Positions 36,589 through 58,600 of a DNA stretch of 64,000 nucleotides are shown in pieces. Within the stretch, counting starts at the first letter, position 1. Each line of letters begins with the position of its first letter. The DNA comes from Pomacea canaliculata. Its lineage: Eukaryota > Mollusca > Gastropoda > Architaenioglossa > Ampullariidae. The notes under the pieces were generated by a model. That model saw only the letters and a program-made list of their open reading frames with translations. It did no database searches and had not been told where the DNA came from. Position numbers and translations under genes: made by a program. The stretch spans positions 992,001 through 1,056,000 of the forward strand of contig NC_037595.1 in NCBI RefSeq assembly GCF_003073045.1, given 5' to 3'.

Positions 36589-38739
36589 ATGTCAGGAGCA
36601 ATGCTGAGGTCGTCTGCTGTCGTCCTCATCCTTATGACCATGCTTGGGTTGTCAGCAGGTAATATCACTGACTGATACTTGTACTGAGGACAGTTCACGT
36701 GCACACTGTTAAACTGCCAGTCCTACTGATACATCATAATCATGTCATTGTTGTCAATCTGTTTGTGCCTGTATGCCAGTGTTGTACTACTACTAATAAT
36801 AATAGTACTAATAACGTGAGTTGTCAAAGAAAGGCTTAAAACTCGTCTAAGCTGCTGTCCCTCGGTAGGACATGTTGGTCCGACTCGGCCCCAGCGGCAC
36901 AGCGCGGAGTAGGTCCAATCTGTCCGACTCCTCGGCAACCAGACAACCATGTTTTGATGAACATTCATAACATCTTTTTATTTATAATAACAACTGCTAA
37001 TATTTACGATTTAAATGGCTCAACATCGCTGATTTCACAGACTCATCCTACGCATACAATGCTACGACAGTTTGTTGACTGATGAGTCTGTTCTCATCAT
37101 CGCCACTGAAATGTTGCTAAAGTTTCACATGAAATGTTGTTGTACAGCTGCAGACAACTGTCCAGCTGGCTGGCGTAAGTACAAGCACAGCTGCTATGTC
37201 TTCATCTCCGAGTTTCTCACCTATGCAGAAGCAATGGTAAAATGCATATTTTTATTGTTTGGATTAAAAATGTCACAGCACTAATAATACATATCTGAAG
37301 AAAGAAATTTTACAGATGTTGGTAGCCTTATATTAAAAACTACCAAGAATAAAAGAAAAAAAAGGCATATACTCACCACAAAGAAAGAAATTGGTCAATT
37401 GTTTGAGTAATATTTTAAATTCAATAAAAGAACATCCGTCACAAACTGGAATTAATATTTTAAAATAATAGGTAAGACAGTAATAATTGTACATTTTATG
37501 TCGATTTATAGTATATCTAATGTTTCACATGTTGGCCGTTCACTTCTCCTCAGATTAAATTAAGCACTCAGAGCAGTACAGGAAACTGTATAAACTGTTT
37601 GCTTATTTTAAGTACGATACCGGTTTTAGTCTAACATTGTAAAACACAATTTCGTTTATAATTATCGATAGTGTGTGATACAGCACAGTAAACTGTAGCA
37701 AGTAATGAAGAATATTGTTCAAAAGTGATGCTGTTCTTGTAACTGCATTTAATCTCAAGTTTGCTATTACTAATAAAAATTGTCAAAAACTAAATTTTCA
37801 ATCAGCGAATCTGCAATATGCTCCGAGCTGAAATTGTAGAAATCAACTCTGAAGAGGAACACTCTTTCATTGGCAGTCTCCTGGATTTAAATAAGGGTAG
37901 GAAAAATTCTGCATACTCAATTGATTATGATTAAAATACACACAAATTATACAGAAATTAAAAACTAACATGACAAAAAAACCTTTGTTTAAGTAATGTG
38001 AAGTCAAGAATTTAATTAGTGCATTGCTAAGCGAAAAAAATCGAAATGTCAGCTCAGAAAGGCCGCCAACGGACATCATTGGGAAAACAGAAAAAAACAC
38101 AAACCAGTGAAAGACACCAAACCTGTGAAATAGGCCTTTTGTCCTTCTGTCTGGTGTACCATACCATCACCTTCACCTAACACTAAGCATCATCTCATAT
38201 AAAGGATATAATCAGGTTGTTAATGATATTTGTTTACAGCAACTCATATGTGGATCGGAATGAACGATCTAATTCAGGAGGGCACGTGGGTATCAGCCAG
38301 CAGTGGAACACCAGTGAACTTCACTAAGTGGATGAATGGTGAACCAAACGAATTTCGTGGGAAAGAGGATTGTGCAGATTACCAGACCCACTTGAGGGCT
38401 TGGAACGACATTACTTGTAGTTATAAACACAAGTTCGTCTGTGAATCAAGTAAGATGCTGTAGCCTCCGTTCCTTCAATTCTTGTCACTATAATTCCAGA
38501 CATGAATCTTTCAGTAGGAGGACAAATAAACATTAAAACATACCACAACCGATATTGTATTAATCATGTTGGAGTTGTATATAAAAAATGATTAAAATTT
38601 TTAAAGCAACTTATTTTCAAATTGAAAGGAACGTTTTTTGTAAATAATTGTTGTAGACGAGCCAGGAGTAAATAAAAGATCAGCTTCCAATTCATTGTTA
38701 AACTCTCACCAGTCCTGGCACAGAGTGGACTTTGGATAG
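36589..38739 (+). CDS. CTL-6 (unit D1): secreted C-type lectin with EPN site
   Basis: Exons 36589-36658, 37148-37236, 37806-37896, 38240-38449 and 38657-38739 give one 180-residue frame. Signal peptide MSGAMLRSSAVVLILMTMLG; CTLD: CPAGWRKYKHSCYVF, ICNMLRAEIVEINSEEEHSF, WIGMNDLIQEG, WMNGEPNEFRGKEDCADY, AWNDITC, VCES. EPN plus WND form a complete mannose-type Ca2+ site. The 28-residue tail NEPGVNKRSASNS... comes from exon 5. If the last intron is kept, the protein instead ends CESSKML (stop 38461-38463) and AATAAA follows at 38525-38530, so two 3' ends are possible. Exon 2 contains an internal donor-like GGCGTAAGTAC at 37172-37182. Confidence 0.93.
38525..38530 (+). promoter_or_regulatory. Candidate intronic poly(A) signal of CTL-6
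   Basis: AATAAA 62 bases after the read-through stop (CESSKML), before exon 5. The same arrangement is kept at 53470-53475 (CTL-7) and 58890-58895 (CTL-8). Confidence 0.55.
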
Positions 38740-39744: not shown

Positions 39745-40425
39745 TGTATATCTTTGAATCAAGCAGTGTAACCACAAAAGTTTTTGTGATGTTTATGTGT
39801 TAAATTATGTTTTTTACTGTCTTCTCAGACAACTTCGTCTAAGGCGATAACATTGATTCCTAATACCACTTTAGAATTTTACAATGTGTTACAGCTATAG
39901 AAATAGCAATGATAAAAAACACGAAACAAACAAAAAGCAAGGCATGTATAAATATAACCTCTTGTTCACTTCTTTCCTCCATCCTTCTCCACTTATTACC
40001 ATACAATGGACGAACCACAGTAACATTTCCTGCAGCAAACTTCCACCATCGATAGTTATTAGCGAGGTTGTAATGCCCGCTAATGAAATTTCGACCGGTT
40101 AAAAAAAAAATTGCATTTTCCAATCTACAACAAAAACAACTATCTGTGATACTTTATTTGAAAGAGTATTTGAAATACATGTACGTGGTGTAAATGTTCA
40201 CTAATATACATTTTGTTTTCTTGTAGAAAAACAGAAAAACTGTCGCTGGACAGGACAGATAGTTCACAAATCGGAAAGTAGGTGAAAAATGATACACGAG
40301 GAAAAACACTGATGAAATATATAGATACAAAAAGTACAAAGCAGGTATATATGTAATATTAGTCTATACATTTTAATTACTGTTTTCTCTCATTTTAGTT
40401 TTTTTTGTGTGTGTACAAATCAAAT
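39745..40425. repeat. Linker repeat L (copy 2)
   Basis: Near-identical to 54693-55375 and to 31870-32500. Separates unit D1 from D2. No coding sequence recognised. Confidence 0.9.
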
Positions 40426-40714
40426 GGAAGATGGGTGAAGGGTGGGGCAGTCCCACCCGCTGCTCCAAGCTGGCGCTGGCACTGCAGTGTGTACAGTACC
40501 TGCAACATTTGGAAGGAAGAAGACGAGACCTTATCATCATGTCGCTGCTTTGACGGAGTATTACTGACAACTTATCTTCAGATAATCTTTTCACAAGGTC
40601 ACATTTTATCTTTATTAGTCAACCGACGACAATAATTGCATTTCCTCCTCTCCGGTAAATGAAATATTTGAGTGACTGCCATCGGTACTGTCAGTGCTGA
40701 GACTGCTGCAAGAA

Positions 40715-43700
40715 ATGTCAGGAGCAATGCTGAGGTCGTCTGCTGTCGTCCTCATCCTTATGACCATGCTTGGGTTGTCAGCAGGTAATATCACTGACTG
40801 ATACTTGTACTGAGGACAGTTCACGTGCACACTGTTAAACTGCCAGTCCTACTGATACATCATAATCATGTCCATTGTTGTCAATCTGTTTGTGCCTGTA
40901 TGCCAGTGTTGTACTACTAATAGTACTACTAATAATAATATTAATACTGTGCCTTTTCAAAGATAGGCTTAAAACTCTTTACATACATGATACATCTACT
41001 GAATTATCACCAACCTTGCATGTATATTTGTATGGAACAGACTCGCTCACCTCTACAACAGACAGTCAAACACAAAGTAAATACAGACACTCGTCATACC
41101 CCCCCAGGGTCAGGAGGGGTCAGTGAAGTCGTTCTGAAAATACTCGCCTTTAGTTTATACTTAAAGATGAGAAGAGAAGCAGAATGGCGAAGGCAGAGGG
41201 ATAATCTGTTGCAAGTCTGTTTCAGTTTGTTCTTATTGTGAAAGCTTTGACTTATATTCAGGAGACAATAATAAAATAGGTGTGTAATGTAATATTGTTT
41301 TTTCAGATTAGAGATATTGTTGATTACCGTTAGATGTAGTATGAGAGTAGGTGTAGAGGTGCAAATGACATTTTTGAGGAATTTGTCTGGACAATAGACT
41401 GGATGTCTCAAGCAGGTGCCATGCACTTTTTCTTATTTTCTTCTCTAAACATAGTTTTTCTTACTTTGTCAGCACATTGTTGCTGGCTTTGATAGGATTC
41501 TTGTTTTCCTATTTGTACTCTTGTCTATTGATGTTTACTTTTATAGTGCTTATGGGCTTCTTCTATCAGAAGGTCGTAGATTGAACAAAGTAAAAGTACT
41601 GTGGTCAGTAGAGACTGGTTTTTCCCGTAGCCTTTTTTACAAGACTTGACACTGCAAACTCGTTTTATGACAGCTTTATACTTACCTTTCCTTGTAATTG
41701 TTTTCCCTTTGTTTTCTTGTTTGCTTGAGGTAAAGAACCAAATATTGTGTTTAAATTGTTTTATATCTTTATAACTCAATCGGGCAGTAGTGAGAAGTGC
41801 GCGTTGCTAACAGTCGACGAAGCGCTGAAAGCCAGTGAGTGCATTTTCAAACAGTATTTAAAAAAAATATTTTGATTAATCTACAAAGTTGACAATTATG
41901 GTTGATACTCCGAAATGTAGGAGATTTTAAGACAAATAGGTTTGTTTACTGGTAGTAAAATCACATGAGAGATTGTGGCCGTGTGCGACAACGAATTCAC
42001 GAATCGGTAAGTAGGTCAGCTGCTACAAATTAAAAAAAAAAAATTTACAGAATATTAACTAAGATAAAGTACCAAACAAACACGTATTTAATTAGAATGT
42101 ACATTATAATGTAAAAATTGCTGACTGTTTTCTTCCTATTTCCAGTTGTTTGTATACAAAGGGATGTTGTATTATGTAACCTGTAGCATGGCGTTTGAGC
42201 ACAGAATGTTTGCCTACTTTCAAACATAACCAAATGCCTCATTAGTCATTGGTTGACTATTTCAGCCTTTAAAAGGAAGTAATGGATAGTGGAGCAACTC
42301 TTAAATGTTGTAGTACTTGCCTCTCTTATCTATTCATTTATAATTTGAATGATATATTGTACGCTCAGATCGAAGTGTTCTAAGCTGCTGCCCCTCGGTA
42401 GGACATGTTGGTCCGACTCGGCCCCAGCGGCAGGCCTGACGAGAGGGAGGGACAGGGGGGTCTGGTGTACCCGGGCCCGCGGCTGTCAAGGGGGCCCGGC
42501 CTTGGTCAGTGGATTTTTTTTTCTTCTTCTCCTTTTCTTTTTCTTTTAAAGAAAGGTCTAAGGACAGAACACCCAAGCATTACGCATGCAGAAGTTGAGT
42601 TTGAGTGTAGATATTGAGATTCGAATTCTAAACATACGTACATTATATACTGGGAAAATAATTTACGATTACAAGTACAAGGGGCCCGGAGAGGTCTGTC
42701 CCGGGGCCCGGGCTGGCTCTCGGCGGCCCTGATGAAGCCCAAAAAGGCCACCAACACACCCAGAGGCGGCGTTAGGACTACGCGGGGCCTGGGGCCGACC
42801 ATCCGCGCGGGGCCGGGTACATAGAGTACGTGTATCAACATCCCTATTGATATGATGCCGGAAGCACTGATTTATATACAGTTAGGCTGGATGTGTTTCG
42901 CGAAATAACGCACGAATTTAGTGTTTTAATTGTTGGTAACCGTTTGTGACAGTAGTGGTTTTTTCTTAAAGCGAAATAATATGGTGACGATAACTTAATA
43001 AACTGCTTGTTGTTATTGTCGGGCTTAACCTGAAGACATGGGTTCAATAATTTGCTTAATTAGAACTTAGAAGTGTTTTCTGAACGTCAATTTTGTTGTC
43101 ACAACATGTTTAACACAGCTACATGTAGCAATAAGTCAGAAAGATGACCTCGGGTAAGGTGGTCAGACGTTTCGGGGGCGAAAGCAGGACACGTGCCGAT
43201 GATGGTGACGTCACCGACAAAGAACGCCGATAAATAGGGGCTGGGGGGACTTTCCTCTGACTTTGCCGAGTAGTGATGCGTTCAACGGCAGATCTGTCCA
43301 CGCCACTACAATATTCCACTTTAAATAGAAAACCGGTATTTAACATTTAAATTAAAATATTCCTACCTTATCTCCCGCTCAGCCAACTTTGCGAACGTGA
43401 GGTGAGGCGCTGTAACAAATTATGGTGCTTCGCCATCTTGCGAGGCTGTTACTCCGAAACCCTACTTCATAGACCGTGAATCGCCTTGTAAAGTTTCGGT
43501 CATTGCAAGATAGTGTCATAAATTTTTTCACAAGGATTTCGTGAATTTTCCCTGTCAAAGTTGCACCTCACAATTAAAAGTCCTTTCAATGTTTCCACCT
43601 TTAACTGTCTTTTCACTGGCGTCTGGCGATGTTCTTATCGTCCCCGACATTAGTTTAGTCACTGATCCGTACTCACAGAAAAGGATTATTGGAGGTGAAT

Positions 43701-46700
43701 AAAATGCCGGGCAGCGGAAAAAACGCGGGAGGACGAAATGCAGAGAGGTGGGGGCAAACGTGCTGACGTAGACTTGATGAGATGGCAGGGTATCTGGTGT
43801 AACCGGGCTCGAGGTTGTGAAGGGGCCCGGCCTTGGTCAATGGATTGTTTTCCTTCTTTGTCTTTTCTCTTACAGAAAGGTCCGAAGAAGGAACACCCAA
43901 GCATTACACCTGCAGTATACAATTTCCAGACCGAAGGTAGGCGGGGTAGTCGGGGTAGCGGGTCAGGTGTCAGAGGGCCGCTGGACACAATGATTTATGG
44001 CCCATGAACCGTTAGAAGAACGTTCGTGCATTGAGGTCGCTGGTTGGGGGACCTGCAAGCAAGTTGGACTTGACATTAAAGAGGTGGATATGTTACTGAT
44101 GTATGGCAACTATGAATGGAAAGGATGGGGCCCACCACTGGCACTACAACCTCTAAGCCCGAAGTGAGAGATGTCAAAGGAACTTGTTTCCTGTAGTTAC
44201 TTCACGACACAATGAAACTTTCTCTTCCCGTCTCTCCATCACCAAGCAAACTACATTAGTCTACAACTCTATACCCTTTGGATCTGCATCGTCTGCCAAA
44301 ATCTAAAATGCACTTGCTTTCATTTTTTTTAAAATTTAGCCTAGCTTACTTTTCTAAAAATGTATTATATCAAGTATAACACAGTTAGAAATCGGCAGTC
44401 TGTAGCATTCCAACACAAAAGTCAAAAGATAAAAAATAATAACAGGCTGACATGACTCGTTAGAGGATGCCTTCAAAGGAAAACGAGCGACTTCAAGCAG
44501 CTTCACTTTACACAATAAAGTCGGCAGGTGAAAGCCATTGTGTACTCATTTGTTGTCCATTTCCATATATCACTAGGTTTGGGGTGTAGTCAGCTGTTGG
44601 CGTGGGTTGCCACTGGGAAGTGGGGGAACTCGGACAACTGTAACCAAAGAAGCTGACACCTTAAAGAGGGACGAGCAGACGACCACCGGCGATGTACCAG
44701 CGGCGCGTGCAATAAGATATCGGCCGGCAGGTCATTGTCGTCACGGGTCAAACCCCGGAGCCCGCACAGCGACGAAAAATAAAGCGGGATCAAGAAAACA
44801 CCGCCAAAACCAAAGGCGCGGATGAGAATCAGTGTACGGTATTTTTAAAGACAAGCTGGACATTGTGGACTTGCCAGAAAGCGAGACATTGGGCGTCCCG
44901 CCCGGACATTTTATGAGCAGGCGGGACACGAGGTCAAAAGCGTCTGGTCACTTTACCTCGGGGCTGAAGCGCGGGGCCCCTTCGAGAGCGGGGCCTGGGG
45001 CGGCCGCCCCATTTGCCACCCCCTAACGCCGGCCCTGAACACACCAGAAATCAAGAGAGAACTATCAGAATGTAAAAAAACTTAAATTTGATGATATAGT
45101 CCTATCCTTTTTAAAAAAGGTTTTTAAAGACTGCTGCCGATGGGACGGACCTAAATAAGACAAAGAATTTACTGCAAAAAACTGTCGACGGATGGTCTGG
45201 AGCTCTGGACAGTTAATCAAAAAGTGTAACACATTAAAATTTCCCTTACACCAGGGGCAGGCTGGTGGTGGTTCACCTCGCAAGAGGTATCCTTGCGTGG
45301 CATAGGTATTTCCTATCTTTAGTCTTGTAAGGACTACCTAGCTCCTCCCACCTTGTAGTGTGGCACAAAGGTGGGCGGTCAGAAAGACAGGGAAGAGTGG
45401 CGAATAATTTGTTTTGATTTAAAGTGTTCCAGTGGCGTTGCCATAAGGTCAGAATGTAGGTTGAGAATACAGTTTTGCAGTCGGATGAGATAAGTGACTG
45501 TATTTTACCAGGGGACTGACATGCAGCCTTGGCAGCCTGGTCTGCTCGAACATTGCCTGGAATATCAGAATGGCCAGGATCCCAAATAAAAACAATGTCC
45601 TTACATGTATTTCGTTGAATAAGTGCTGCATGAATTTTATGAATCTGAACCACAAGGGGGTGGTCCGAATCATTTGAAATGAGAGCTTGGAGTGCAGAAA
45701 GGGAGTCTGAAATTATCAAAAAGTTGTGCTCCGAAGAGCGGTGAGCATGCTGCAAGGCAAGCAAGATGGCATGGAGTTCTGCTGTGAAAATAGAACATTC
45801 GTCTGTCAGTCGGACTGAAGCAGCCCGTTGTGGTTGGCAGGACGGAACTGCTGCCGCAGCGACTGGGCCACCACTTGGGCCTTTGGAGCCATCTGTAAAA
45901 ACTGAGCAGAATTTAGGATAGTCAGAAATGAGTTCATGAAAGTGTTGGAGGTAGATGGGGTCACTAGTGTCCCTTTTTTTGAAAGTTGTAAGATCAAAGC
46001 GGATCTCTGGAACAGGAAGGGTCCAAGGAGGAATTGTTTGCAGAGATAAAGGTTCTACCTGATTAATATCTACTCCGGCAGCTTGTAGGTGAGGTGCTAC
46101 CCGGAGTGATAGAGGCTTTTGCTCCTTGGTACGAATGGCATACAGGGCAGCACGCTGAGGTCTGAAGACAGCACGATACGCAGGGTTTCCAGGATGAGCT
46201 TTTAAGTGACAGACATAGGATAGCATGAGTTTCAAACGACGGAGAGAAAGTGGGGGCTCACCAGCTTCTGCGTACAAACTTTGTACAGGAGTGGTGCGGA
46301 AGGCAACCAAACAGAGGCGGAGCCCTTGATGGCGAATTGGATCGAGAATTTTAAGGTAGGACTCTCGAGCAGCCATAGATGATGGATCCATAGTCTAGCT
46401 TGGAGCGGACCAGGGCACGATACAGACGAAGCAGGACCATGCGATCCGCCCCCCATCTGACATGGCCAACTACTCTAAGAATGTCCAAGGCTTTTTGGCA
46501 TGAAAGGCATAGAGATTTAATATGAGATAGAAAGGACAGTTTACGGTCAAAGATGACCCCAAGGAATTTTACTTCCTGGACCACTTTGAGTACTGTGCCG
46601 TTGACAGAAATAGATGGGTTTGGAAATATACCTCTCATTTTGCAAAAGTGAATGCATACTGACTTCGTAGGAGAAAATTGGAAGCCATTTTCTATCACCC

Positions 46701-49700
46701 ACCTTTGTGCAGCATCTACGCATAGTTGCAGCCGGCTTTCGAGGCATGGTAGGGAACGGCCTCGAATGCAGAGAGCAAAGTCATCTACATATAACGAGGC
46801 CTCAAAACCGGGACAAACATGTTTCAAGATGGAGTCGATTTTTATATTGAAAAGAGTTGGAGGAAGAATGCTGCCCTGAGGGATGCCCATTTCCTGTTCC
46901 CGAGGATCAGATAAAATAGATCCCACTCTTATTTGAAAGAGGCGATGTGAGAGAAAATGTTTGATGAAGAGTGGCATACGATCCCGGAAGCTAAGGGCAT
47001 GGAGGTCCAGCAGAATACCCTGCTTCCAGGTAGTGTCGTATGCCCTCTCTAAATCAAAAGCCGGGTCCGGCTAGTAAAGCACTCGTCAACAAAATGCTTG
47101 GAGCATAACATGTCCCACTCTCTGGGCTCCCAAAGCCTTTTTGTTTTGGGATCGAGCCTTTTAATTTGTAAGACCCATTCTTTTTGTAAGGCCTTGTCTT
47201 TAGGAAAGTAATGAAAAGACAATGTCGAATCTTTTCCCACCTTTTCGTGGCAATCGGGTGCAGCACATTCTCCAGGCATGGTTCGGTCGCACTGGTAAAC
47301 AATCCAACTGATGATGATGATTGATGATTGATGATGATGATGATGATGATGATGTCGATTTGTAATGCGCAGGTATCCATTCCGAAGAATGCTCATTGCG
47401 CAGAAAAAAACAAAAGAAACTGAAACATCATAAGGTCACGTGACCGAGAACGAGACTTCGTCGAAGCAAACGACAGTCCCGTGTAATTTCTCTTATTAAA
47501 CACAACATTCTAATAAAAACATTCAACTTTTTCCACATGAACAGACATGAAAATAGACGAGATTCAAATCGATCCTACTATTTATGAGTTTCTAAGCAGT
47601 TTTATTTTCCCTTGAGTATCCCTTAGCAGAAGGCTTGTGTAAGTGGTGTATTTGTGTCGCCATTCGTGTGCTGGGTAAGTGTGCGTATGGCATATTACAA
47701 TGAAATTCAGGTAATACAGAAACAACGCAATTGCAAACAGTATCATTGTAGTCGAATATCGCTAAGTCTCTTTTAAATCCTTTTATAGTACCTCTAAGCA
47801 CGCATGTACGTAGAGAAAGATGAGAGGTTGGGGGTGAGGATAGGGCATGAATCGACTGGAGAATGGTTTCTTGTTGATGCAGTCAAGGCACACAATCGAC
47901 ATCTTTTCTGGCAGACAGCCGGACAAACAGGCAAATTCGTAAGTTGAAAGAGAAAACACAGGTACATTGTATAAATTCTTGATAAAATTTAATGCTTTAA
48001 AACTCGCACCAAGAAAACCCCCACTGTTATGGTTCAGATCTGTCCACGAGCTAGCTGAATGAAGACGATGGAACACCTGTTGTCATTTACTCCTGGTGAC
48101 CCGAGAGAAGTTTTCTAGTGGCATTACATGGGTACCTAGGTATTTTCTCCCCTCATTATTTCGACTCTTGATTGTAGTTTGTTACGGTAATATGTTCTAG
48201 TGTGACCCTGGACATTTTATGCAAAAGAATATCACTTACTATGAGGCTGTCAAATCTGGTAGCGAAATATAGACAAAAGTATGCTAGTTAGCTGTTCTAA
48301 TATCGCCATAAAGGAGTGTTCTTGACGGAGCACCTTGGTGAGTGGCTCTTCTAGCGGAGTTGACTGACTGCAGCATAGATCCAGTCGACGAACCTAACTA
48401 TGTAAGTATAGAAGCCAGGTTGACCAGGCTGGCCGCAGCCAAATCCACTGGACACAATTCCAAACAAGTAGTAGGTCTCTAGTGGGGTGTTCAGCTTGCA
48501 CATTAGTGGACTGCCAGAGTCACCCTGCAAAAGAACCAAATGTCCAGAAAGATCTTTGGACGTCGCATGTGGGTCATGGTACAATGTATTGGTCGTCGCC
48601 ATCCAATCATCTTTCGTTCTAATAAAGTAATGTAGATTTCTATTCAGTTTCGAAATGTCCATTATTGCCAAGCGTTCTGAATCAGTCTTCAGTTCCCATG
48701 CTCCCTAAGTTGTTCGAACTTCGCATGAGCACTTCTTTGATTTTCATCCGGAAAAGAATGGTTCACAATCGTCAGACGACGGTTTCTCAGAAATATACAT
48801 TATATAGGAATAACTTGAAATTAACAATCATGGCTAAGAGATAAGAGCAAAAAAAAAAAAAAGCCAAATATCATTTCTTTGTTCATTAAGTGATACAACA
48901 ATAGAAAAATGGTGGATTCAGTTTTTCTTTATTTCTCACCAGTGGCAGTCAGAACTGAAAATTTCTGTGGATCCCTATAACACTCAAAGGTCTAAATAAG
49001 AAGATTGAATTTTTGTTATCGCGATAAATTAGAGACAATGTTAAAGATATATTTATATATGTTGTGGTTCTTTAAAGATTTCAACTATTATAAACAAAGA
49101 TTTTATATCCTTTTTACCGATATTTTAAAATGAGTTTTTTTTCCTTACTCGACATGCATCCTTGCCTCCTGCGGTACCGTTTGCTGCGCAGATGACCCCT
49201 GGGGTCAGGTAAATACTAATATTGTAGGGTGTGGTGGCCTGGAATGTCTGGAGACACGTCTCAGCTGTGTATGTTTGGATTTCTTCAAACATCAGTTGCT
49301 CAGCCACTGGGCCCGTGACTTCAACAAACGTAAAGCCAGACGAATGCTGTTAGCAATCGCTGTTGAGAATATTTTCAGTGACAAGAACTTTTAGAATAAA
49401 AATATTTCCTCGTGAAACCATTAAAGCTTGTGCAATACTGTCGATCTTCATCACAGGCGCTTTGCGTTTGACAAGCTGTTATAGATACAATTACAATTAC
49501 TATTGCATGCAAATTGATAAGAATTCTCGCAGTCAATGATCTTAATCATCTTCTAACAATATCATTTACCTGACAAGAATTTTTACTGGTATCTCCCCTA
49601 ACATTCAACCGTTTTTGAAAGTACACATGGACAAGTATTCTCATATGCAGCCTGATAAAACCATCTTTCAGCAGTAAGCATTAAATTGGCAAAGTTCTCA

Positions 49701-52700
49701 CAGGAAATAGTGCCGTATCCGGCCAGCGTGCAGGGCGAGGGCAGGTCAGCGACTGAAGGTGGTAGACACACCGGAGACACGTAGTCGGTGTAGGTGAGCG
49801 GGCTCTCTAGCAGCAGGACCGCGATGTCGTTGACTGAAAAATAATGTTGACTCAAAAAATAACGCTCGTGAAACACGCGACACGCCTGCCGAGACTGCGT
49901 TTTCTGCTGCAAACTTTAGATTTTTACATTAAACATACCAATGTCATTTTCTAAATACTGTCAGTCGCACGTTCTCCTTATACGTTACCGGGATCATTGG
50001 TTTGAATAAAAAAAGAATTTTCGTTAATTTATTGATCGATTTATTTTGATTTACGTATAAAATTAAAACGCACTACATGTATTTTGTTATAATAATTGTC
50101 AAGATGTTTTCTAACACATGTGCTTGTGAAGCAGCACGTACCACCCTCCTCCCTTCCTAGTCCTGCCATAGCAAACAAAATTCAGACTTACTCAAAAGAC
50201 TCGGGTCGTAATTTTCGTGGCGCTTGCCTCTCACCACGCGAACCCTTTGTTCTGAGCGATCCACCCGCTCCAAGTCTGTGTACAACTTGCCAGCGATCAC
50301 TTCGAAGCCACGGTCAGTCAGTAAGTTGTCCTCAACCTGCCTTCTCGGACCAGAAGCACAAACTTATATACAAGTGGACCATAACCTTAAACATACATGC
50401 AATCCAAACAAACACAAGCGCGCCCAGACGTAGACTTACTCTCATATACAGATATCTTAGAAATAGTCATGGAAAATTTTACCCTTTGCCAAGCTTAGTA
50501 TACTTAGCATTAACAATTTTTTTTATAAAGAACCTGTCTATATATCTATTGTGTGCATTTAAAATGAGAAAAATCAAATTAGTATAGAGTGACCGCAATA
50601 TCTGGTTAATTATGTATGATAATTGCACCTTTACCTCCCCAGTCAATTACTGTACATTACTCTTGTCATTCTAGATTATAATATGATTTTACAATTATGT
50701 TTTCTTTCCTTTTGTGTGGCAATGGCTCGTGATAAGTAGATAGAACTAAAAAAAATAACAACAATAATAATGGTAATAATAATAATGCAAAATTTTTAAA
50801 GTACATACTCACACTCACACTAAGGAGCATGCTCTTGGCGTTTAAGAACAAGAACGAAACATGCACAGCAAAAGAGGGTCAGGAAAACAAAACATTTGAG
50901 CTATAAAAGAATAAGCAACCGTACTAAACGAAGAATAAAATCAAATACAGAAAAACACAAAATGGAACCAAATAATAAGAACAAGAGCTGAGAGTAACAT
51001 GATATTGTAAAAGGAAGGGTGTGACAAAGGACTAGCATGGTGGGAAAGGGTGTAAGGAGCAATGTTTACGGAAGAGGTGCGTTTTCAGTGCAGTTTAACG
51101 GATTCAATAGTAGGTAGATGGCGGGTATGGAAAGGGAGAGAGTTCTATTATTTACCTGCACAATAACTTGTACTGGTATCAGAGTGAGACAGCCGGTGGA
51201 GTGGAGCAGTACAGCTGCGATCATCAGCATATGATTGATGAGAAACATTATGAGACTGGATACAAGATGAAAGTGGCTTCATATACAGAATAAACAGAAC
51301 TTGGTCGAGTACTGAGCCTTGAGGGACGCCACAAGAGACTGAAGCAGGGCGAGATGTTTGACTATCAACAAACACAGTCTGTGTCCTATCAGTGAGACAG
51401 GAGTTGAACCCCACTAGTGCAGGTCAAGAAATCACGCAGAGGGTGTGTAGTGTATGAAGGAGCAGAGAGTGGTCCATGGTGTCAAATGCAGCAGACAGAT
51501 TCAGAAGAATTAAGGCAAAAAACATCACCACTGTCAAGGGCAGATAATATGTCGATGGTCACTTTAATTAGAGTAGTTTCAGTACTGTGAAAAGATCTAT
51601 ACGCTGACTGAGGATAGGGGATGAGCTGATGCTCTTGTAAGTAGGCCCACAGCCAGGCCTGACGAGAGGGGGGGACAGGGGGGGTCTGGTGTACCCGGGC
51701 CCGCGGCTGTCAAGGGGGCCCGGTCTTGGTCAGTGGATTTTTTTTTACATTATATACTGGGAAAATAATTTACGATTACAAGTACAAGGGGCCCGGAGAG
51801 GTCGTCTGTCCCGGGGCCCGGGCTGGCTCTCGGCGGCCCTGCCCAGCGGCACAGCGCGGAGTAGGTCCAATCTGTCCGACTCGTCGGCAACCAGGCAACC
51901 ATGTTTTGATGAACATTCATAACATCTTTTTATTTATAATAATAACTGCTAATATTTACGATTTAAATGGCTCAACATCGCTGATTTTACAGACTCATCC
52001 TAAGCATCCAATGCTACGACAGTTTGTTGACTGATGAGTCTGTTCTCATCATCGCCACTGAAATGTTGCTAAAGTTTCACATGAAATGTTGTTGTACAGC
52101 TGCAGACAACTGTCCAGCTGGCTGGCGAAAGTACAAGCACAGCTGCTATGTCTTCATCTCCGAGTCTCTCACCTATGCAGAAGCAATGGTAAAATGCATA
52201 TTTTTATTGTTTGGATTAAAAATGTCACAGCACTAATAATACATATCTGAAGAAAGAAAATTTACAGAAGTTGGTAGCCTTATATTAAAAACTACCAAGC
52301 TTAAAAAAGACATATAGTGATTACAAAGAAAAGAAATTGGTCAATTGTTTGAGTAATATTTTACATTCAATAAAAGAACATCCGTCACAAACTGGAATTA
52401 ATATTTTTAAATAATAGGTAAGACAGTAATAATTGTGCATTTTATGTCGATTTATAGTATATCTAATGTTTCACATGTTGGCCGTTCACTTCTCCTCAGA
52501 TTAAATTAAGCACTCAGAGCATTACAGGAAACTTTATAAACTGTTTGCTTATTTTAAGTACGATACCGGTTTTAGTCTAACATTGTAAAACACAATTTCG
52601 TTTATAATTATCGATAGTGTGTGATACAGCACAGTAAACTGTAGCAAGTAATGAAGAATATTGTTCAAAAGTGATGCTGTTCTTGTAACTGCATTTAATC

Positions 52701-53699
52701 TCAAGTTTGCTATTACTAATTAAATTGTCAAAAACTATATTTTCAATCAGCGAATCTGCAATATGCTCCGAGCTGAAATTGTAGAAATCAACTCTGAAGA
52801 GGAACACTCTTTCATTGGCAGTCTCCTGGATTTAAATAAGGGTAGGAAAAATTCTGCATACTCAATTGATTATGATTAAAATACACACAAATTATACAGA
52901 AATTAAAAACTAACATGACAAAAAACCTTTGTTTAAGTAATGTGAAGTCAAGAATTTCATTAGTGCATTGTTAAGCGAAAAGAAATCGAAATGTCAGCTC
53001 AGAAAGGCCGCCAACGGACATCATTGGGAAAACAGAAAAAAACACAAACCAGTGAAAGACACCAACTCTGTGAAATAGGCCTTTTGTCCTTCTGTCTAGT
53101 GTACCATACCATCACCTTCACCTAACACTAAGCATCATCTCATATAAAGAATATAATCAGGTTGTTAATGCTATTTGTTTACAGCAACTCATATTTGGAT
53201 CGGAATGAACGATCTAATTCAGGAGGGCACGTGGGTATCAGCCAGCAGTGGAACACCAGTGAACTTCACTAAGTGGATTCATGGTGAACCAAACGACGCT
53301 TCTGGGAAAGAGGATTGTGCAGATTACCATAACGACCATAAAGCGTGGAACGACATTACTTGTGGTTATAAAAACAAGTTCGTCTGTGAATCAAGTAAGA
53401 TGCTGTAGCCTCCGTTCCTCCAATTCTTGTCACTATAATTCCAGAATTGAATCTTTCAGTAGGAGGACAAATAAACATTAAACTATACCACAACCTATAT
53501 TGTATTAATCATGTTGGAGTTGTATATAAAAAATGGTTAAAATTTTTAAAGCAAGTTATTTTCAAATTGAAAGGAACGTTTTTTGTAAATAATTGTTGTA
53601 GACGAGCCAGGAGTAAATAAAAGATCAGCTTCCAATTCATTGTTTAAACTCTCACCAGTCCTGGCACAGAGTGGACTTTGGATAGTTAGCATCAATTAG
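40715..53699 (+). CDS. CTL-7 (unit D2): C-type lectin with EPN site, interrupted by a 9.4-kb insert in intron 1
   Basis: Exons 40715-40784, 52100-52188, 52751-52841, 53185-53394 and 53602-53699 splice to one 185-residue frame. Exons 1 and 3 are identical to CTL-6. CTLD landmarks: CPAGWRKYKHSCYVF, ICNMLRAEIVEINS, WIGMND, WIHGEPNDASGKEDCADY, AWNDITC. The gene should be functional if the 11.3-kb intron 1 is removed; all its splice sites are intact, but no expression evidence exists here. Exon 5 has one extra T relative to CTL-6, so its tail is different and longer (NEPGVNKRSASNSLFKLSPV... to a TAG at 53697-53699). As in CTL-6, unspliced exon 4 ends CESSKML (stop 53406-53408) with AATAAA at 53470-53475. 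Besides the 9.4-kb insert, intron 1 carries about 1.4 kb (40978-42378) absent from CTL-6 and CTL-8. Confidence 0.88.
41940..42340. repeat. Diverged copy of linker L inside CTL-7 intron 1
   Basis: Order-preserved similarity to 32340-32710 (ACGAATCGGTAAGTAGG, TTTGCCTACTT, TTTAAAAGGAAGTA), much more diverged than the other L copies. It suggests an older duplication or gene-conversion tract; the neighbouring 40978-41940 has no recognisable content. Confidence 0.5.
42423..42430. repeat. Left 8-bp target-site duplication CCCAGCGG
   Basis: Exact match to 51842-51849 at the other end of the 9.4-kb insert. The same 8 bases occur once, uninterrupted, at 36890-36897 (D1) and 57284-57291 (D3). Confidence 0.9.
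42431..42731. mobile_element. Short hAT-like element A, copy a
   Basis: Starts CAGGCCTGACGAGAGGGAGG and ends CTCTCGGCGGCCCTG. The interior has a pyrimidine tract and ACACCCAAGCATTACGCATG. Copy b (51654-51841) is the same element with about 110 internal bases missing. No coding capacity. Confidence 0.8.
43155..44954. mobile_element. hAT-like element C nested in element B
   Basis: Flanked by ACCTCGGG at 43147-43154 and 44955-44962, a site present once in the CTL-8 copy of element B. Ends TAAGGTGGTCAGACG and CGTCTGGTCACTTT are near-perfect inverted repeats of the GGTGACCAGACG type seen in some animal hAT families. Both ends carry GGGACA/GGACAC-type motifs close to the terminus. No convincing transposase frame in the 1.8 kb. 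Confidence 0.8.
43786..43925 (+). mobile_element. Fragment of short element A nested in element C
   Basis: CAGGGTATCTGGTGTAACCG, GGGGCCCGGCCTTGGTCA and GAACACCCAAGCATTACACC follow the order of element A copy a (42431-42610) with about 80% identity by eye. Right boundary unclear. Confidence 0.65.
45046..47066 (-). mobile_element. 5'-truncated I/Jockey-type LINE with RT and RNase H
   Basis: Minus strand, starting in RT motif A (AFDLERAYDTTWKQGILLDL, 47060-47000), then GIPQGSILPPTLFNIKIDSI, the catalytic YVDDFALC, and thumb segments to YGSIIYG at about 46370. After a frame change the polyprotein goes on with LKILDPIRHQGLRLCLVAF and an RNase H domain with the expected acidic residues: FTDGSKG, TAELHAILLALQHA, IISDSLSALQAL and HSDIPGNVRADQAAKAA. 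A second frame change near 45340 precedes LRGEPPPACPWCKGNFNVLH and LINCPELQTI, a terminal zinc-knuckle-like region ending at 45065. Only two frame changes and no in-frame stop otherwise point to a young copy. The 3' UTR probably continues across the inserted element B to 42732-42760. Confidence 0.88.
47068..47279 (-). pseudogene. THAP-domain exon, truncated by the LINE
   Basis: From the ATG at 47277-47279 the minus strand reads MPGECAAPDCHEKVGKDSTL, FHYFPKDKALQKEWV, KRLWEPREWDMLCSKHFVDE and CF. The pattern C-x4-C ... W ... P ... C-x2-H-F is the zinc-coordinating THAP fold, a sequence-specific DNA-binding domain found in host THAP proteins and P-element-like transposases. The domain is complete up to the CF motif, but the frame runs at once into LINE sequence and stops (SRTRLLI). 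No second THAP exon is seen. It may be a captured host exon or part of another transposon; which one is not decidable here. Upstream lie an ATG microsatellite and a 12-bp palindrome GGTCACGTGACC (47434-47445). Confidence 0.75.
47309..47354. repeat. (ATG)n microsatellite
   Basis: Imperfect then perfect ATG units just upstream of the THAP start on the minus strand; explains the poly-His and poly-Ile frames there. Confidence 0.9.
47446..48350. other. Spacer between THAP exon and protease
   Basis: No domain recognised. A minus-strand frame at 47783-48076 has several cysteines (CLSGCLPEKMSIVCLDC) but no splice or paralogue support. May include the protease 3' UTR. Confidence 0.4.
48351..50336 (-). 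CDS. Trypsin-like (S1) serine protease, 3' four exons only
   Basis: Minus-strand exons 50336-50192, 49833-49702, 49318-49149 and 48524-48351 join in one frame with canonical sites. The reading is VEDNLLTDRGFEVIAGKLYT, HENYDPSLL/INDIAVLLLESPL (catalytic Asp in NDIAVL), GYGTIS/FTGPVAEQLMFEEI, GGKDACR/GDSGSPLMCK (catalytic Ser), then SSGFGCGQPGQPGFYTY, FVDWI, stop. Asp six residues before the catalytic Ser (DACRGDS) and the Gly residues near the C-terminus predict trypsin-like Arg/Lys preference. The usual Trp in SWG is Ser. The upstream exon with TAAHC, the activation site and the signal peptide are not found in the 1.3 kb before the insert boundary at 51841. So this is a truncated gene with intact exons, inside the composite insertion. 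Confidence 0.85.
50735..51640 (-). mobile_element. Decayed CR1-like LINE fragment
   Basis: Minus strand: QSAYRSFHSTETTLIKVTID (about 51620-51555), LILLNLSAAFDTMDHSLLLH (about 51515-51455), LTDRTQTVFVDSQTSRPASV and CGVPQGSVLDQVLFILYMKP (about 51395-51275), a damaged YADD motif near 51210, then after an internal deletion NSLPFHTRHLPTIESVK (51145-51095) and a 3' UTR ending in ATT-type repeats. There is one frame change at about 51515 and one stop at about 51430. Located beside copy b of element A. Confidence 0.85.
51654..51841. mobile_element. Short hAT-like element A, copy b (internally deleted)
   Basis: Same ends as copy a and the same orientation; the middle ~110 bases are gone. Its right end abuts the right-hand target duplication CCCAGCGG, while its left flank (CCCACAGC) does not match. 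Confidence 0.85.
51842..51849. repeat. Right 8-bp target-site duplication CCCAGCGG
   Basis: Identical to 42423-42430. Sequence of unit D2 resumes here exactly where D1 and D3 continue. Confidence 0.9.
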
Positions 53700-54370
53700 C
53701 AGGCTTTTCTTAAGCTTTATTGTTGACGTTTATCAGCCACCTGCTACACAAAGGACAGTTTATTTTGCTGGGTCACATGGGAGGTCACATGTAAAGTCCA
53801 CTGTCCACCGTGCATGTTGGTTTTGTGATTTACCAGAGACATTTTCAGAGTTCAATGAGGCATTGGTTCTGGACTAGTTTTTGTTTGCCGGCTACCAATT
53901 ACGAATCTGGAATCCATTTAGCATGAATGGATTAGTACTAACTTGCTTACATAATACTTGGTAACACTATTACTAGCGTTGATGTCCAAACCTGTAGAAG
54001 CATTACCGTAACATCAAGTAATTTCTCTGACAGGGTATACTGAGAAGTGAACCAGGGAAGCGGCGTCTACAGACTCGGAGTTTGCAGGGCCATTATTTTA
54101 TTGTAATTTATAATTTTATTTTAGTTTACACCGGCTTTAAAGTAAACAAAATAGCCCACCAGAGCACTAGCATCTCTTTTGTCGTGAGCGATGCCTCTTT
54201 ATAGAAGGTGAATTTGTAGAGGAACTCTTGATGATCAGAAATAAGAGTAGAAAGACTAGCAGTGGGTAAGGTCAAGGAAGCGTCTGATTACAATCAGTCA
54301 TTGATTTCATCGATACATCAATGAGGGGAAAGCTGAATTGAGGTTGCCAATAGCTTACTTCCTTTCTCTC

Positions 54371-54560
54371 CGGCAAGCGGAAACCTGAGTGGTTAGAGCT
54401 CTGGCATCGGAAGTGACAGCGCGCTGGTTCAATACCCGATTAGCGCAGAAAACTTTGCCCTGGTCATGAGAAGAAAGAGGTCTCTAACACCTCATCCCAC
54501 AAAGACCTTTAAAAGCTAGGGAATCACCTCTCCCTTTTACTCCCTTTCCCTCTGTAATTT
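54371..54560 (+). mobile_element. tRNA-derived SINE in D2
   Basis: Same insertion as 39425-39620, with A- and B-box-like sequences present (GAGTGGTTAGAGC, GGTTCAATACC). Confidence 0.75.
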
Positions 54561-54692
54561 CAATACTGTTGTTGAACGATAATTTAACAATTTTAATAAA
54601 TCTTTTGTACTTGGCTGTTTTGTCAGTTTTTATGAGAAGTCGATTGTGTGTCTGAGTAGCACTTTGTGATGACTACGAAATGACAACAGTAT

Positions 54693-55375
54693 TTGTATAT
54701 CTTTGAATCAAGCAGTGTAACCACAAAAGTTTTTGTGATGTTTATGTGTTAAATTATGTTTTTTACTGTCTTCTCAGACAACTTCGTCTAAGGCGATAAC
54801 ATTGATTCCTAATACCACTTTAGAATTTTACAATGTGTTACAGCTATAGAAATAGCAATGATAAAAAACACAAAACAAACAAAAAGCAAGGAATGTATAA
54901 ATATAACCTCTTGTTCACTTCTTTCCTCCATCCTTCTCCACTTATTACCATACAATGGACGAACCACAGTATCATTTCCTGCAGCAAACTTCCACCATCA
55001 ATAGTTATTAGCGAGGTTGTAATGCCCGCTAATGAAATTTCGACCGGTTAAAAAAAAAATTGCATTTTCCAATCTACAACAAAAACAACTATCTGTGATA
55101 CTTTATTTGAAAGAGTATTTGAAATACATGTACGTGGTGTAAATGTTCACTAATATACATTTTGTTTTCTTGTAGAAAAACAGAAAAACTGTCGCTGGAC
55201 AGGACAGATACTTCACAAATCGGAAAGTAGGTGAAAAATGATACACGATGAAAAACACTGATGAAATATATAGATACAAAAAGTTCAAAGCAGGTATATA
55301 TGTAATATTAGTCTATACATTTTAATTACTGTTTTCTCTCATTTTAGTTTTTTTGTGTGTGTGTACAAATCAAAT
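54693..55375. repeat. Linker repeat L (copy 3)
   Basis: Near-identical to 39745-40425; separates D2 from D3. Confidence 0.9.
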
Positions 55376-55664
55376 GGAAGATGGGTGAAGGGTGGGGCAG
55401 TCCCACCCGCTGCTCCAAGCTGGCGCTGGCACTGCAGTGTGTACAGTACCTGCAACATTTGGAAGGAAGAAGACGAGACCTTATCATCATGTCGCTGCTT
55501 TGACGGAGTATTACTGACAACTTATCTTCAGATAATCTTTTCACAAGGTCACATTTTATCTTTATTAGTCAACCGACGACAATAATTGCATTTCCTCCTC
55601 TCCGGTAAATGAAATATTTGAGTGACTGCCATCGGTACTGTCAGTGCTGAGACTGCTGCAAGAA

Positions 55665-58600
55665 ATGTCAGGAGCAATGCTGAGGTCGTCTGCTGTCGTC
55701 CTCATCCTTATGACCATGCTTGGGTTGTCAGCAGGTAATATCACTGACTGATACTTGTACTGAGGACAGTTCACGTGCACACTGTTAAACTGCCAGTCCT
55801 ACTGATACATCATAATCATGTCCATTGTTGTCAATCTGTTTGTGCCTGTATGCCAGTGTTGTACTACTACTACTACTACTACTAATAATAGTACTAATAA
55901 TGTGAGTTGTCAAAGAAAGGCTTAAAACTCGTCTAAACTGCTCAGAGGCGGCGTTAGGGGGTGGCATATGGGGGTCGCCCCAGGCCCCGCTTTCGAAGGG
56001 GCCCCGCGCTTCAGTCCCGAGGTCATCTTTATGACATATTGTTAGCTGTGTTAAACAAATTAAGTTGTGACCAAAAAATTGACGTTCAGTAAACACTTTT
56101 AACTTCTAATTAAGCAAATTATTGAACCCATGTCTTAACTTTAAACCCGGCAATAATAACAAGCAGTTTATTAAATCAAATCAAATCAGACTTTATTGTC
56201 TGTCGAGGAGACCCCACGACAGAAAATATTCTTTTGCTCACACGGGCAGGCATACATACTCATACAGACATTTAACGCACACACAATCACTATTATCTGT
56301 TTATCACCTGCAGGCAAACAACATTACAAATTGTCATCTATGTCATCTATTGGCCTGTGACAGAAATCCCTGCATTTCATTTTTTAGATTGTTTAGATTG
56401 AGAGCTCGTCTTGTTTGTGCGAAAGAGAGAGCACATTCAACAAGGTGATGGCTGGTAATGGATGTCAGCACCCTCTTCTCTTCAGACTGTGTTTGATTCC
56501 TCCTAAATCCTTCTGTCTTTATTTAGGATGGTGATGGCTGCTGGCACGAAGGACCTCTGGTAGGCAGCTTTCCGTACACGTGGCACTTTATAGCACCTGC
56601 CTGAGGGCAACAGCTGGAAGTTGGGATGGAGAGGGTGCGTTAGGTCAGAAATGTTGTTGTGTGCCATCTTTCTGACTGCATGAAGGTACAAGTCAGAAAG
56701 TGGCAGCTGTGATTTACCAATAATTTTATTTGCCTGGTGGATGACTCTGGCCAGCCTTGCCTTGTCTTTGACGAGGAGGTGACCATATCAGGCAGCAATG
56801 TTAAATGAGAGGATGCTCTCAACAAGAGACCTGTACACAGTCTCCAGCACCCCAGAGCTGACGTCGAAGCTGCGGAGTCTCCTCAGATGGTACAGCCGTT
56901 GCTGGGCCTGTCTGTACACTTGGTTCACGTGATCACTAAATGAGAGCCTCCCGTCGATCACTGTACCAAGGTACCTACACAGCAGCCCTCTGCACCTTAA
57001 GTTACCGTCACCATATTATTTCGCTTTAAGAAAAAGTCGCTACTGTCACAAACGGTGGGAAAGGTTGCGAACAATGAAAACACTAAATTCGTGGTTATTT
57101 CGAGAAATTGATCCAGCCTATTTAACTGTATATAAATCAGTGCTTCCGGCATCATATCAATAGGGATGTTGATACACGTACTCCATTACGCCGGCCCCGC
57201 GCGGATGGTCGGCCCCCGCACGTATTCCTAACGCCGCCTCTGAAGCTGCTGCCCCTCGGTAGGACATGTTGGTCCGACTCGGCCCCAGCGGCACAGCGCG
57301 GAGTAGGTCCAATCTGTCCGACTCCTCGGCAACCAGACAACCATGTTTTGATGAACATACTAATATTTACGATTTAAATGGCTCAACATCGCTGATTTTA
57401 CAGACTCATCCTAAGCATCCAATGCTACGACAATTTGTTGACTGATGAGTCTGTTCTCATCATCGCCACTGAAATGTTGCTAAAGTTTCACATGAAATGT
57501 TGTTGTACAGCTGCAGACAACTGTCCAGCTGGCTGGCGTAAGTACAAGCACAGCTGCTATGTCTTCATCTCCGAGTTTCTCACCTATGCAGAAGCAATGG
57601 TAAAATGCATATTTTTGTTGTTTGTATTAAAAATGTCACAGCACTAATAATACATATCTGAAGAAAGAAATTTTACAGATGTTGGTAGCCTTATATTAAA
57701 AACTACCAAGAATAAAAGAAAAAAAAAAGGCATATACTCACCACAAAGAAAGAAACTGGTCAATTGTTTGAGTAATATTTTACATTCAATAAAAGAACAT
57801 CCGTCACAAACTGGAATTAATATTTTTAAATAATAGGTAAGACAGTAATAATTGTACATTTTATGTCGATTTATAGTATATCTAATGTTTCACATGTTGG
57901 CCGTTCACTTCTCCTCAGATTAAATTAAGCACTCAGAGCAGTACAGGAAACTGTATAAACTGTTTGCTTATTTTAAGTACGATACCAGTTTTAGTCTAAC
58001 ATTGTAAAACACAATTTCATTTATAATTATTGATAGTGTGTGATACAGCACAGTAAACTGTAGCAAGTAATGAAGAATATTGTTCAAAAGTGATGCTGTT
58101 CTTGTAACTGCATTTAATCTCAAGCTTGCTATTACTAACTACAATTGTCAAAAACTATATTTTCAATCAGCGAATCTGCAATATGCTCCGAGCTGAAATT
58201 GTTGAAATCAACTCTGAAGAGGAACACTCTTTCATTGGCAGTCTCCTGGATTTAAATAAGGGTAGGAAAAATTCTGCATACTCAATTGATTATAATTAAA
58301 ATACACACAAATTATACAGAAATTAAAAACTAACATGACAAAAAACCTTTGTTTAAGTAATGTGAAGTCAAGAATTTCATTAGTGCATTGCTAAGCGAAA
58401 AGAAATCGAAATGTCAGCTCAGAAAGGCCGCCAACGGCCATCATTGGGAAGACAGAAAAAAACACAAACCAGTGAAAGACACCAAACCTGTGAAATAGGC
58501 CTTTTGTCCTTCTGTCTAGTGTACCATACCATCACCTTCACCTAACACTAAGCATCATCTCATATAAAGAATATAATCTGGTTGTTAATGATATTTGATT

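Follow-up and report, generated by a model that had tools for sequence, protein, structure and literature searches.

A 9,411-bp insert (42431-51841) lies in intron 1 of the middle gene among three tandem C-type lectin genes of the apple snail Pomacea canaliculata, in a 64-kb stretch of contig NC_037595.1 (hereafter the window, in whose numbering all positions are given). The insert is bordered by two direct copies of a short hAT-like element, here called A, between which lies a chromosomal cargo with protease and THAP exons. This arrangement is probably the product of en bloc transposition (macrotransposition), in which a transposase acting in trans would have used the outer ends of the two A copies as if they belonged to a single element. 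The snail insert is a new animal, hAT-like case of a kind already known, mainly from maize.

The first-pass annotation of the window had described a 9.4-kb block with a perfect 8-bp duplication, and the target-site duplication (TSD) CCCAGCGG indeed adjoins the left end of the first copy (A1, at 42431) and the right end of the second (A2, at 51841) exactly. The same octamer occurs four times on the plus strand of the window, at 36890, 42423, 51842 and 57284, and the two outlying occurrences are the unbroken targets that had been claimed for two near-identical paralogues.
42423..42430, no strand: left target-site duplication CCCAGCGG, by sequence comparison
51842..51849, no strand: right target-site duplication CCCAGCGG, by sequence comparison
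36890..36897, plus strand: empty target in intron 1 of lectin unit 1
57284..57291, plus strand: empty target in intron 1 of lectin unit 3

The chance that two random octamers from the window are identical is 5.6e-5 which, together with the empty sites in the two paralogues, makes a chance duplication untenable. The 40 bases to the left of the insert, including one copy of the TSD, agree with unit 1 at 39 positions and with unit 3 at all 40, and the 40 bases to the right agree with each of them at 39. The site is empty, and carries no footprint, in both of the two sister genes. The inner ends of the A copies behave differently from the outer ones, as had been stated: the flank to the right of A1 is ATGAAGCC and the one to the left of A2 is CCCACAGC, alike at 2 of 8 positions.

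The bordering copies themselves also bear out the earlier description of two direct copies of one short element.
42431..42731, plus strand: element A1, 301 bp, with imperfect terminal inverted repeats, left CAGGCCTGACGAGAGG and right CAGGGCCGCCGAGAGC
51654..51841, plus strand: element A2, 188 bp, without 117 inner bp of A1

Both copies have the same orientation and each holds a left and a right end. They differ by 2 substitutions in 184 aligned bases (1.1%), besides the 117-bp inner stretch gone from A2 and two small extras, of 1 and 3 bases, that A2 carries. The terminal inverted repeats of A1 are equal at 12 of their first 16 positions. A partial third relative of A (43793-43915, about 80% identical to inner A1) is found inside an element of the cargo, B. 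Read by eye, this relative holds part of the stretch absent from A2 and, at the two sites where A1 and A2 differ, shows A1's base at one and a third base at the other. Because it keeps part of the stretch and one of A1's bases, A2 looks like a derived copy, on what is thin evidence. From the likeness between them, A and B may have a common origin, or B may have taken up an A-like piece. The same 43793-43915 segment carries a tract resembling a 3' splice site.

The presence of protease and THAP exons in the cargo is upheld by Pfam matches, and two fragments of long interspersed nuclear elements (LINE1 and LINE2) and the nested element B can be added to the earlier account. From left to right, the cargo holds a short stretch with the nested B, LINE1, a THAP exon, four protease exons, and LINE2.
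42732..51653, no strand: cargo, 8,922 bp, an intron-bearing chromosomal fragment that also holds two pieces of LINEs and the nested element B
42753..42760, second copy at 45038-45045, no strand: TSD of nested B, AACACACC
42761..45037, plus strand: element B, 2,277 bp, a separate insertion within the cargo, with inverted ends CAGAGGCGGCGTTAGG / CAGGGCCGGCGTTAGG
45065..47063, minus strand: LINE1, 5'-truncated, with RVT_1 from profile position 73 and then RNase H (Pfam)
47066..47279, minus strand: THAP exon with initial Met, cut by LINE1 (Pfam THAP at 47082-47267)
48351..48524, minus strand: last protease exon, with the catalytic Ser motif (GDSGSP) and the stop codon (Pfam, reading frame)
49149..49318, minus strand: protease exon, placed by reading frame and by protein P0001, with no Pfam match alone
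49702..49833, minus strand: protease exon with the catalytic Asp motif (NDIAVLL; Pfam, reading frame)
50192..50336, minus strand: protease exon after the missing His exon (reading frame)
50775..51653, minus strand: LINE2 fragment (reverse transcriptase), its frame cut at A2 (Pfam RVT_1)

Of its serine protease gene, the cargo retains the four 3'-most exons and lacks the one that encodes the catalytic His. Joined, the four exons read as a single open frame of 206 residues; the three introns between them have GT-AG ends, and an AG acceptor precedes the first exon, which may begin 4 bases earlier than listed, the full-length protein having Q before V. Trypsin matches (4.4e-12 and 4.1e-8) were obtained for two of the three protease open reading frames (ORFs), the one at 49125-49349 being unmatched. 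The retained introns indicate that the protease segment moved as DNA, and RNA-mediated capture is rejected on the same grounds.

The first-pass annotation had proposed looking for unlinked full-length genes behind the cargo. For the protease such a gene was found: P0001 (C0Q70_19571, P. canaliculata) is a full-length protein with the His exon, identical to the cargo at 160 of 162 aligned residues, and the sole near-identical one among the 8 proteins matched by the protease fragment. It lies on a scaffold of 23,662,357 bp, and the lectin proteins P0009 and P0010 lie on a different one, of 31,531,291 bp, both being of chromosome scale. Its two other residues and its extra exon indicate that P0001 is not the window's copy. 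For THAP, the corresponding search for a full-length protein yielded no candidate. A scan of prokaryote contigs with P0001 gave 74 pattern stretches and no relatives. At the protein level, the P0001 model ends early in its last exon, and the cargo copy reads on to the stop.

The remaining cargo is largely repetitive. Nested B makes up about a quarter of the 9.4-kb block and has its own perfect 8-bp duplication, AACACACC; four ORFs of the B region gave no Pfam match, and no transposase domain was seen in them. LINE1 is cut inside its reverse transcriptase domain, and its frame begins where the THAP frame stops. Its 3' end is not fixed: LINE1 probably continues towards A1 across B, and the short stretch at the left of the cargo is probably its end. 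The THAP match (1.7e-11) has THAP2, THAP1 and THAP11 as its relatives in PDB. In LINE2, the RVT_1 match is below the Pfam cut-off in one piece and above it across two frames, and begins at profile position 34, residue 8 of the fragment; the reverse transcriptase frame ends at A2. In a self-comparison of the window, the cargo matches the remainder only through B, A-like sequence and one LINE2 piece, the 3' part at 50775-50986, which is 84% like 8908-9116. Unequal exchange within the lectin array is rejected, as the cargo matches no lectin sequence in that comparison, and exon shuffling into the lectin is rejected since the cargo exons lie on the opposite strand.

The mechanism proposed for this insert starts from a donor site with two same-orientation copies of the short, non-autonomous A, inserted some 6.6-8.9 kb apart. 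One of them would have stood beside or in LINE1 and the other inside the reverse transcriptase frame of LINE2; between them would have lain a THAP exon and the 3' half of a serine protease gene. A transposase from A's own family, provided in trans, would then have paired the left end of A1 with the right end of A2, and not the two ends of one A, and the resulting 9.4-kb block would have been inserted in intron 1 of lectin unit 2, making the 8-bp target duplication. B could have entered the cargo before or after this move. Two copies that each keep both ends, with the inner junctions falling at element ends, are expected if each A was inserted separately in the donor, and inner flanks that differ are required by two independent donor insertions.

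The insert displays structural features by which a hAT macrotransposon is recognized, namely two linked copies of an element with terminal inverted repeats at the ends, a duplication common to the outer ends only, and a known empty site. Such behavior is known for maize Ac/Ds elements, as described in PMC9910405 and PMC3260210, and in the account of the P. canaliculata genome in PMC6129957, hAT-Charlie elements are said to have undergone a recent burst and DNA transposons to peak near 4% divergence. The two-A donor, the transposase and movement in a single step are inferred, and composite transposition is the simplest reading, one step accounting for the common target duplication, the lack of duplications at the inner ends, the junctions at element ends and the genomic cargo. 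It is rather unlikely that paired short hAT-like elements repeatedly move gene-fragment segments in the apple-snail genome and that this insert is one of many composites from the recent burst, which would then form a family comparable in an animal to the maize macrotransposons.

The assignment of A as hAT-like is based on the 8-bp duplications and the form of its imperfect inverted ends, and not on a transposase. The 8-bp duplication typical of hAT elements was read from the outermost A ends of the composite rather than from a solo A; the duplications of B agree at 8 of 8 positions in the cargo and at 7 of 8 in lectin unit 3. The imperfect terminal repeats of A are of a form that may be hAT-like. 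Duplications of 8 bp are also made by P elements.

Several observations weigh against this assignment and the proposed transposition. No transposase domain was found by Pfam in 17 distinct stretches of the window, the remaining window ORFs not having been submitted, and the duplications of A and B presumably do not closely fit hAT target preferences. The short length and near identity of A1 and A2 prevent mosaic copies from being told from intact ones. The lectin units diverge by 2.6-4.0% downstream of the site, compared with 1.1% between A1 and A2, which leaves time enough for an earlier resident single A. The donor A-cargo-A is reconstructed rather than seen. Finally, the inner flank of A2 matches CCCAGCGG at 5 of 8 positions, a likeness of at least 5 being reached by about 3.6% of random pairs; given that the LINE2 reverse transcriptase frame runs into this flank, the likeness is taken as chance, and a decayed lectin duplication at this place was dropped as an explanation.

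Among other explanations, the main rival to macrotransposition is ectopic recombination or gap repair, where a single A resident in the lectin intron would have made the CCCAGCGG duplication and a later break in it would have been repaired from a donor A-cargo-A elsewhere, so that the cargo was copied in with half of an A on either side. A1 and A2 share 182 of 184 bases, homology enough for template use, and break-repair errors are cited as a proposed route of gene capture in the maize Ds paper (PMC3260210); the hAT-Charlie burst (PMC6129957) also speaks for this route, which would leave an identical final sequence. However, it takes two steps and still requires the donor A-cargo-A, and no single A stands at the site in either sister unit, so that this course of events is considered rather unlikely. 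The earlier designation of the insert as a composite transposon holds for its layout, duplication, empty sites and cargo, and less firmly for the transposition, for which ectopic recombination would give the same sequence.

An assembly chimera, in which the assembled sequence would switch at a lone A of the lectin intron into an A-cargo-A block of the donor and then return, is clearly less probable. Tandem paralogues of 96-97% identity and repeats are error-prone regions, but such an error takes two matching misjoins, each at a repeat no longer than about 300 bp, and the published assembly is described as backed by 60x PacBio reads averaging 10.1 kb (PMC6129957). Slightly less credible again is a tandem A-A dimer in the intron, between whose copies an unrelated segment was later inserted by end joining or by another element: tandem insertions of transposable elements are reported (PMC12368964), but no duplication flanks the cargo itself, and both of its junctions fall at A ends. 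Least plausible of all is recombination between a lone A of the lectin intron and a circular DNA with one A and its flanks; this would be expected to yield two A copies in direct orientation, with duplications at the outer ends alone, but a normally inserted A brings its own duplication and the inner flanks should then be identical, and with 2 of 8 positions alike the circle is rejected, unless it arose by recombination between two A copies.

In bacterial composite transposons, passenger DNA is enclosed by two insertion elements and travels with them as a unit, the flanking elements usually encoding the transposase. Unlike these, the snail A encodes none. The closest likeness is found in the maize hAT family Ac/Ds. 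In the description of the compound element Ds-l4-483 (PMC3260210), a 7.3-kb block has short hAT-family copies at both ends, a target duplication common to the outer ends, and a cargo made of a retrotransposon fragment and transcribed sequence from another chromosome. There the first Ds is flanked by its own duplication, with an extra copy at the far end, in contrast with the unduplicated inner end of the snail A1, and the second Ds is truncated, whereas A2 keeps both ends and has an inner deletion. The same source cites macrotransposition with 100 kb of intervening DNA. The Ac/Ds macrotransposons of PMC9910405 likewise act as one transposon through the outermost ends of a linked pair of hAT elements, with gene-bearing DNA between them and 8-bp duplications; their excision and reinsertion were observed, whereas the snail movement is read from one insertion.

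Among animals, KolobokP (PMC9587614), found in animals and most widespread in molluscs, also has an internal region between direct repeats with their own inverted ends. According to that description its duplications are of 3-5 bp and its repeats of about 450 or 660 bp, compared with 8 bp and 188-301 bp in the snail, and multicopy families with an internal transposase and nuclease contrast with a chromosomal cargo known in one copy. Membership of KolobokP is rejected on the length of the duplication. The KolobokP transposase and His-Me nuclease are likewise not among the contents of the cargo, which are LINE, THAP and protease exon sequences, a difference that is weak alone, since nonautonomous KolobokP families exist. 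The P-element macrotransposition proposed for Anopheles AgaP2-P12MITE (PMC1562414) is similar in involving two nearby elements moved en bloc in an animal; it is a proposal on the origin of a miniature inverted-repeat transposable element (MITE), in the P superfamily, and gene cargo goes unmentioned in the part of the source that presents it. Macrotransposition is also mentioned in a paper on Galileo of Drosophila, and a further report (PMC3169594) deals with a Mutator/Foldback family. The claim that such a layout is rarely described for animal hAT elements has to be narrowed, given the near-identical maize hAT layout (PMC3260210) and the composite-like, mollusc-rich Kolobok (PMC9587614). By title and start of abstract, no animal hAT composite was recognizable among the open-licence papers listed, and priority is not established.

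The interest of the insert is that of a clean, checkable animal example and not of a new kind of system. It offers a natural case, exact to the base, of what seems to be the transport of several exons of one gene to another chromosome by two nonautonomous hAT-like elements. The maize Ds paper (PMC3260210) calls gene capture a rare feature of hAT elements. Two published P. canaliculata assemblies and 173 resequenced snails are reported to exist (PMC6129957, PMC11417965), and these make the composite model directly testable.

For the host gene, the plain effect is the growth of the first intron of lectin unit 2 from about 0.5 to 11.3 kb, of which 1.4 kb belongs to another insert. Since the cargo exons run antisense to the lectin, a fusion protein is not expected.
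40727..53276, plus strand: host gene, lectin unit 2, by coding motifs (exon 1 at 40727-40786, exon 2 at 52102-52155, exon 3 at 52763-52840, exon 4 at 53196-53276)

The distance between the motifs of exons 1 and 2 is 489 bp in unit 1, 11,315 bp in unit 2 and 1,776 bp in unit 3. The unit 2 peptide matches Lectin_C in Pfam (E 3.8e-23). The lectin peptide matched two proteins, both from P. canaliculata: P0009, with the exon-4 residues of unit 3, and P0010 (C0Q70_10479), with the residues that unit 2 has in exon 3 and at the start of exon 4. Despite the annotated start of C0Q70_10479 at exon 3, the exon 1 motif of unit 2 is present upstream of the insert and the exon 2 motif just after it. Within the window, 9 further ORFs and one repeat gave no Pfam match (0 of 10), Rfam gave none in 40000-58000, and no tRNA was found in the 64 kb.

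The excess length of the unit 3 intron is a second copy of B (55943-57242), shorter and in opposite orientation, which lies in intron 1 at 41 bp from the target site of the composite; the two copies of its 8-bp duplication, AAACTGCT/AAGCTGCT, show one mismatch. Intron 1 of unit 2 holds another insert of about 1.4 kb (40978-42378) that stops about 45 bp before the composite begins; it showed neither terminal repeats nor a target duplication, and two of its ORFs were tried without a Pfam match. Two sister lectin genes thus hold, between them, three different inserts that all lie within about 50 bp of a single position in the intron.

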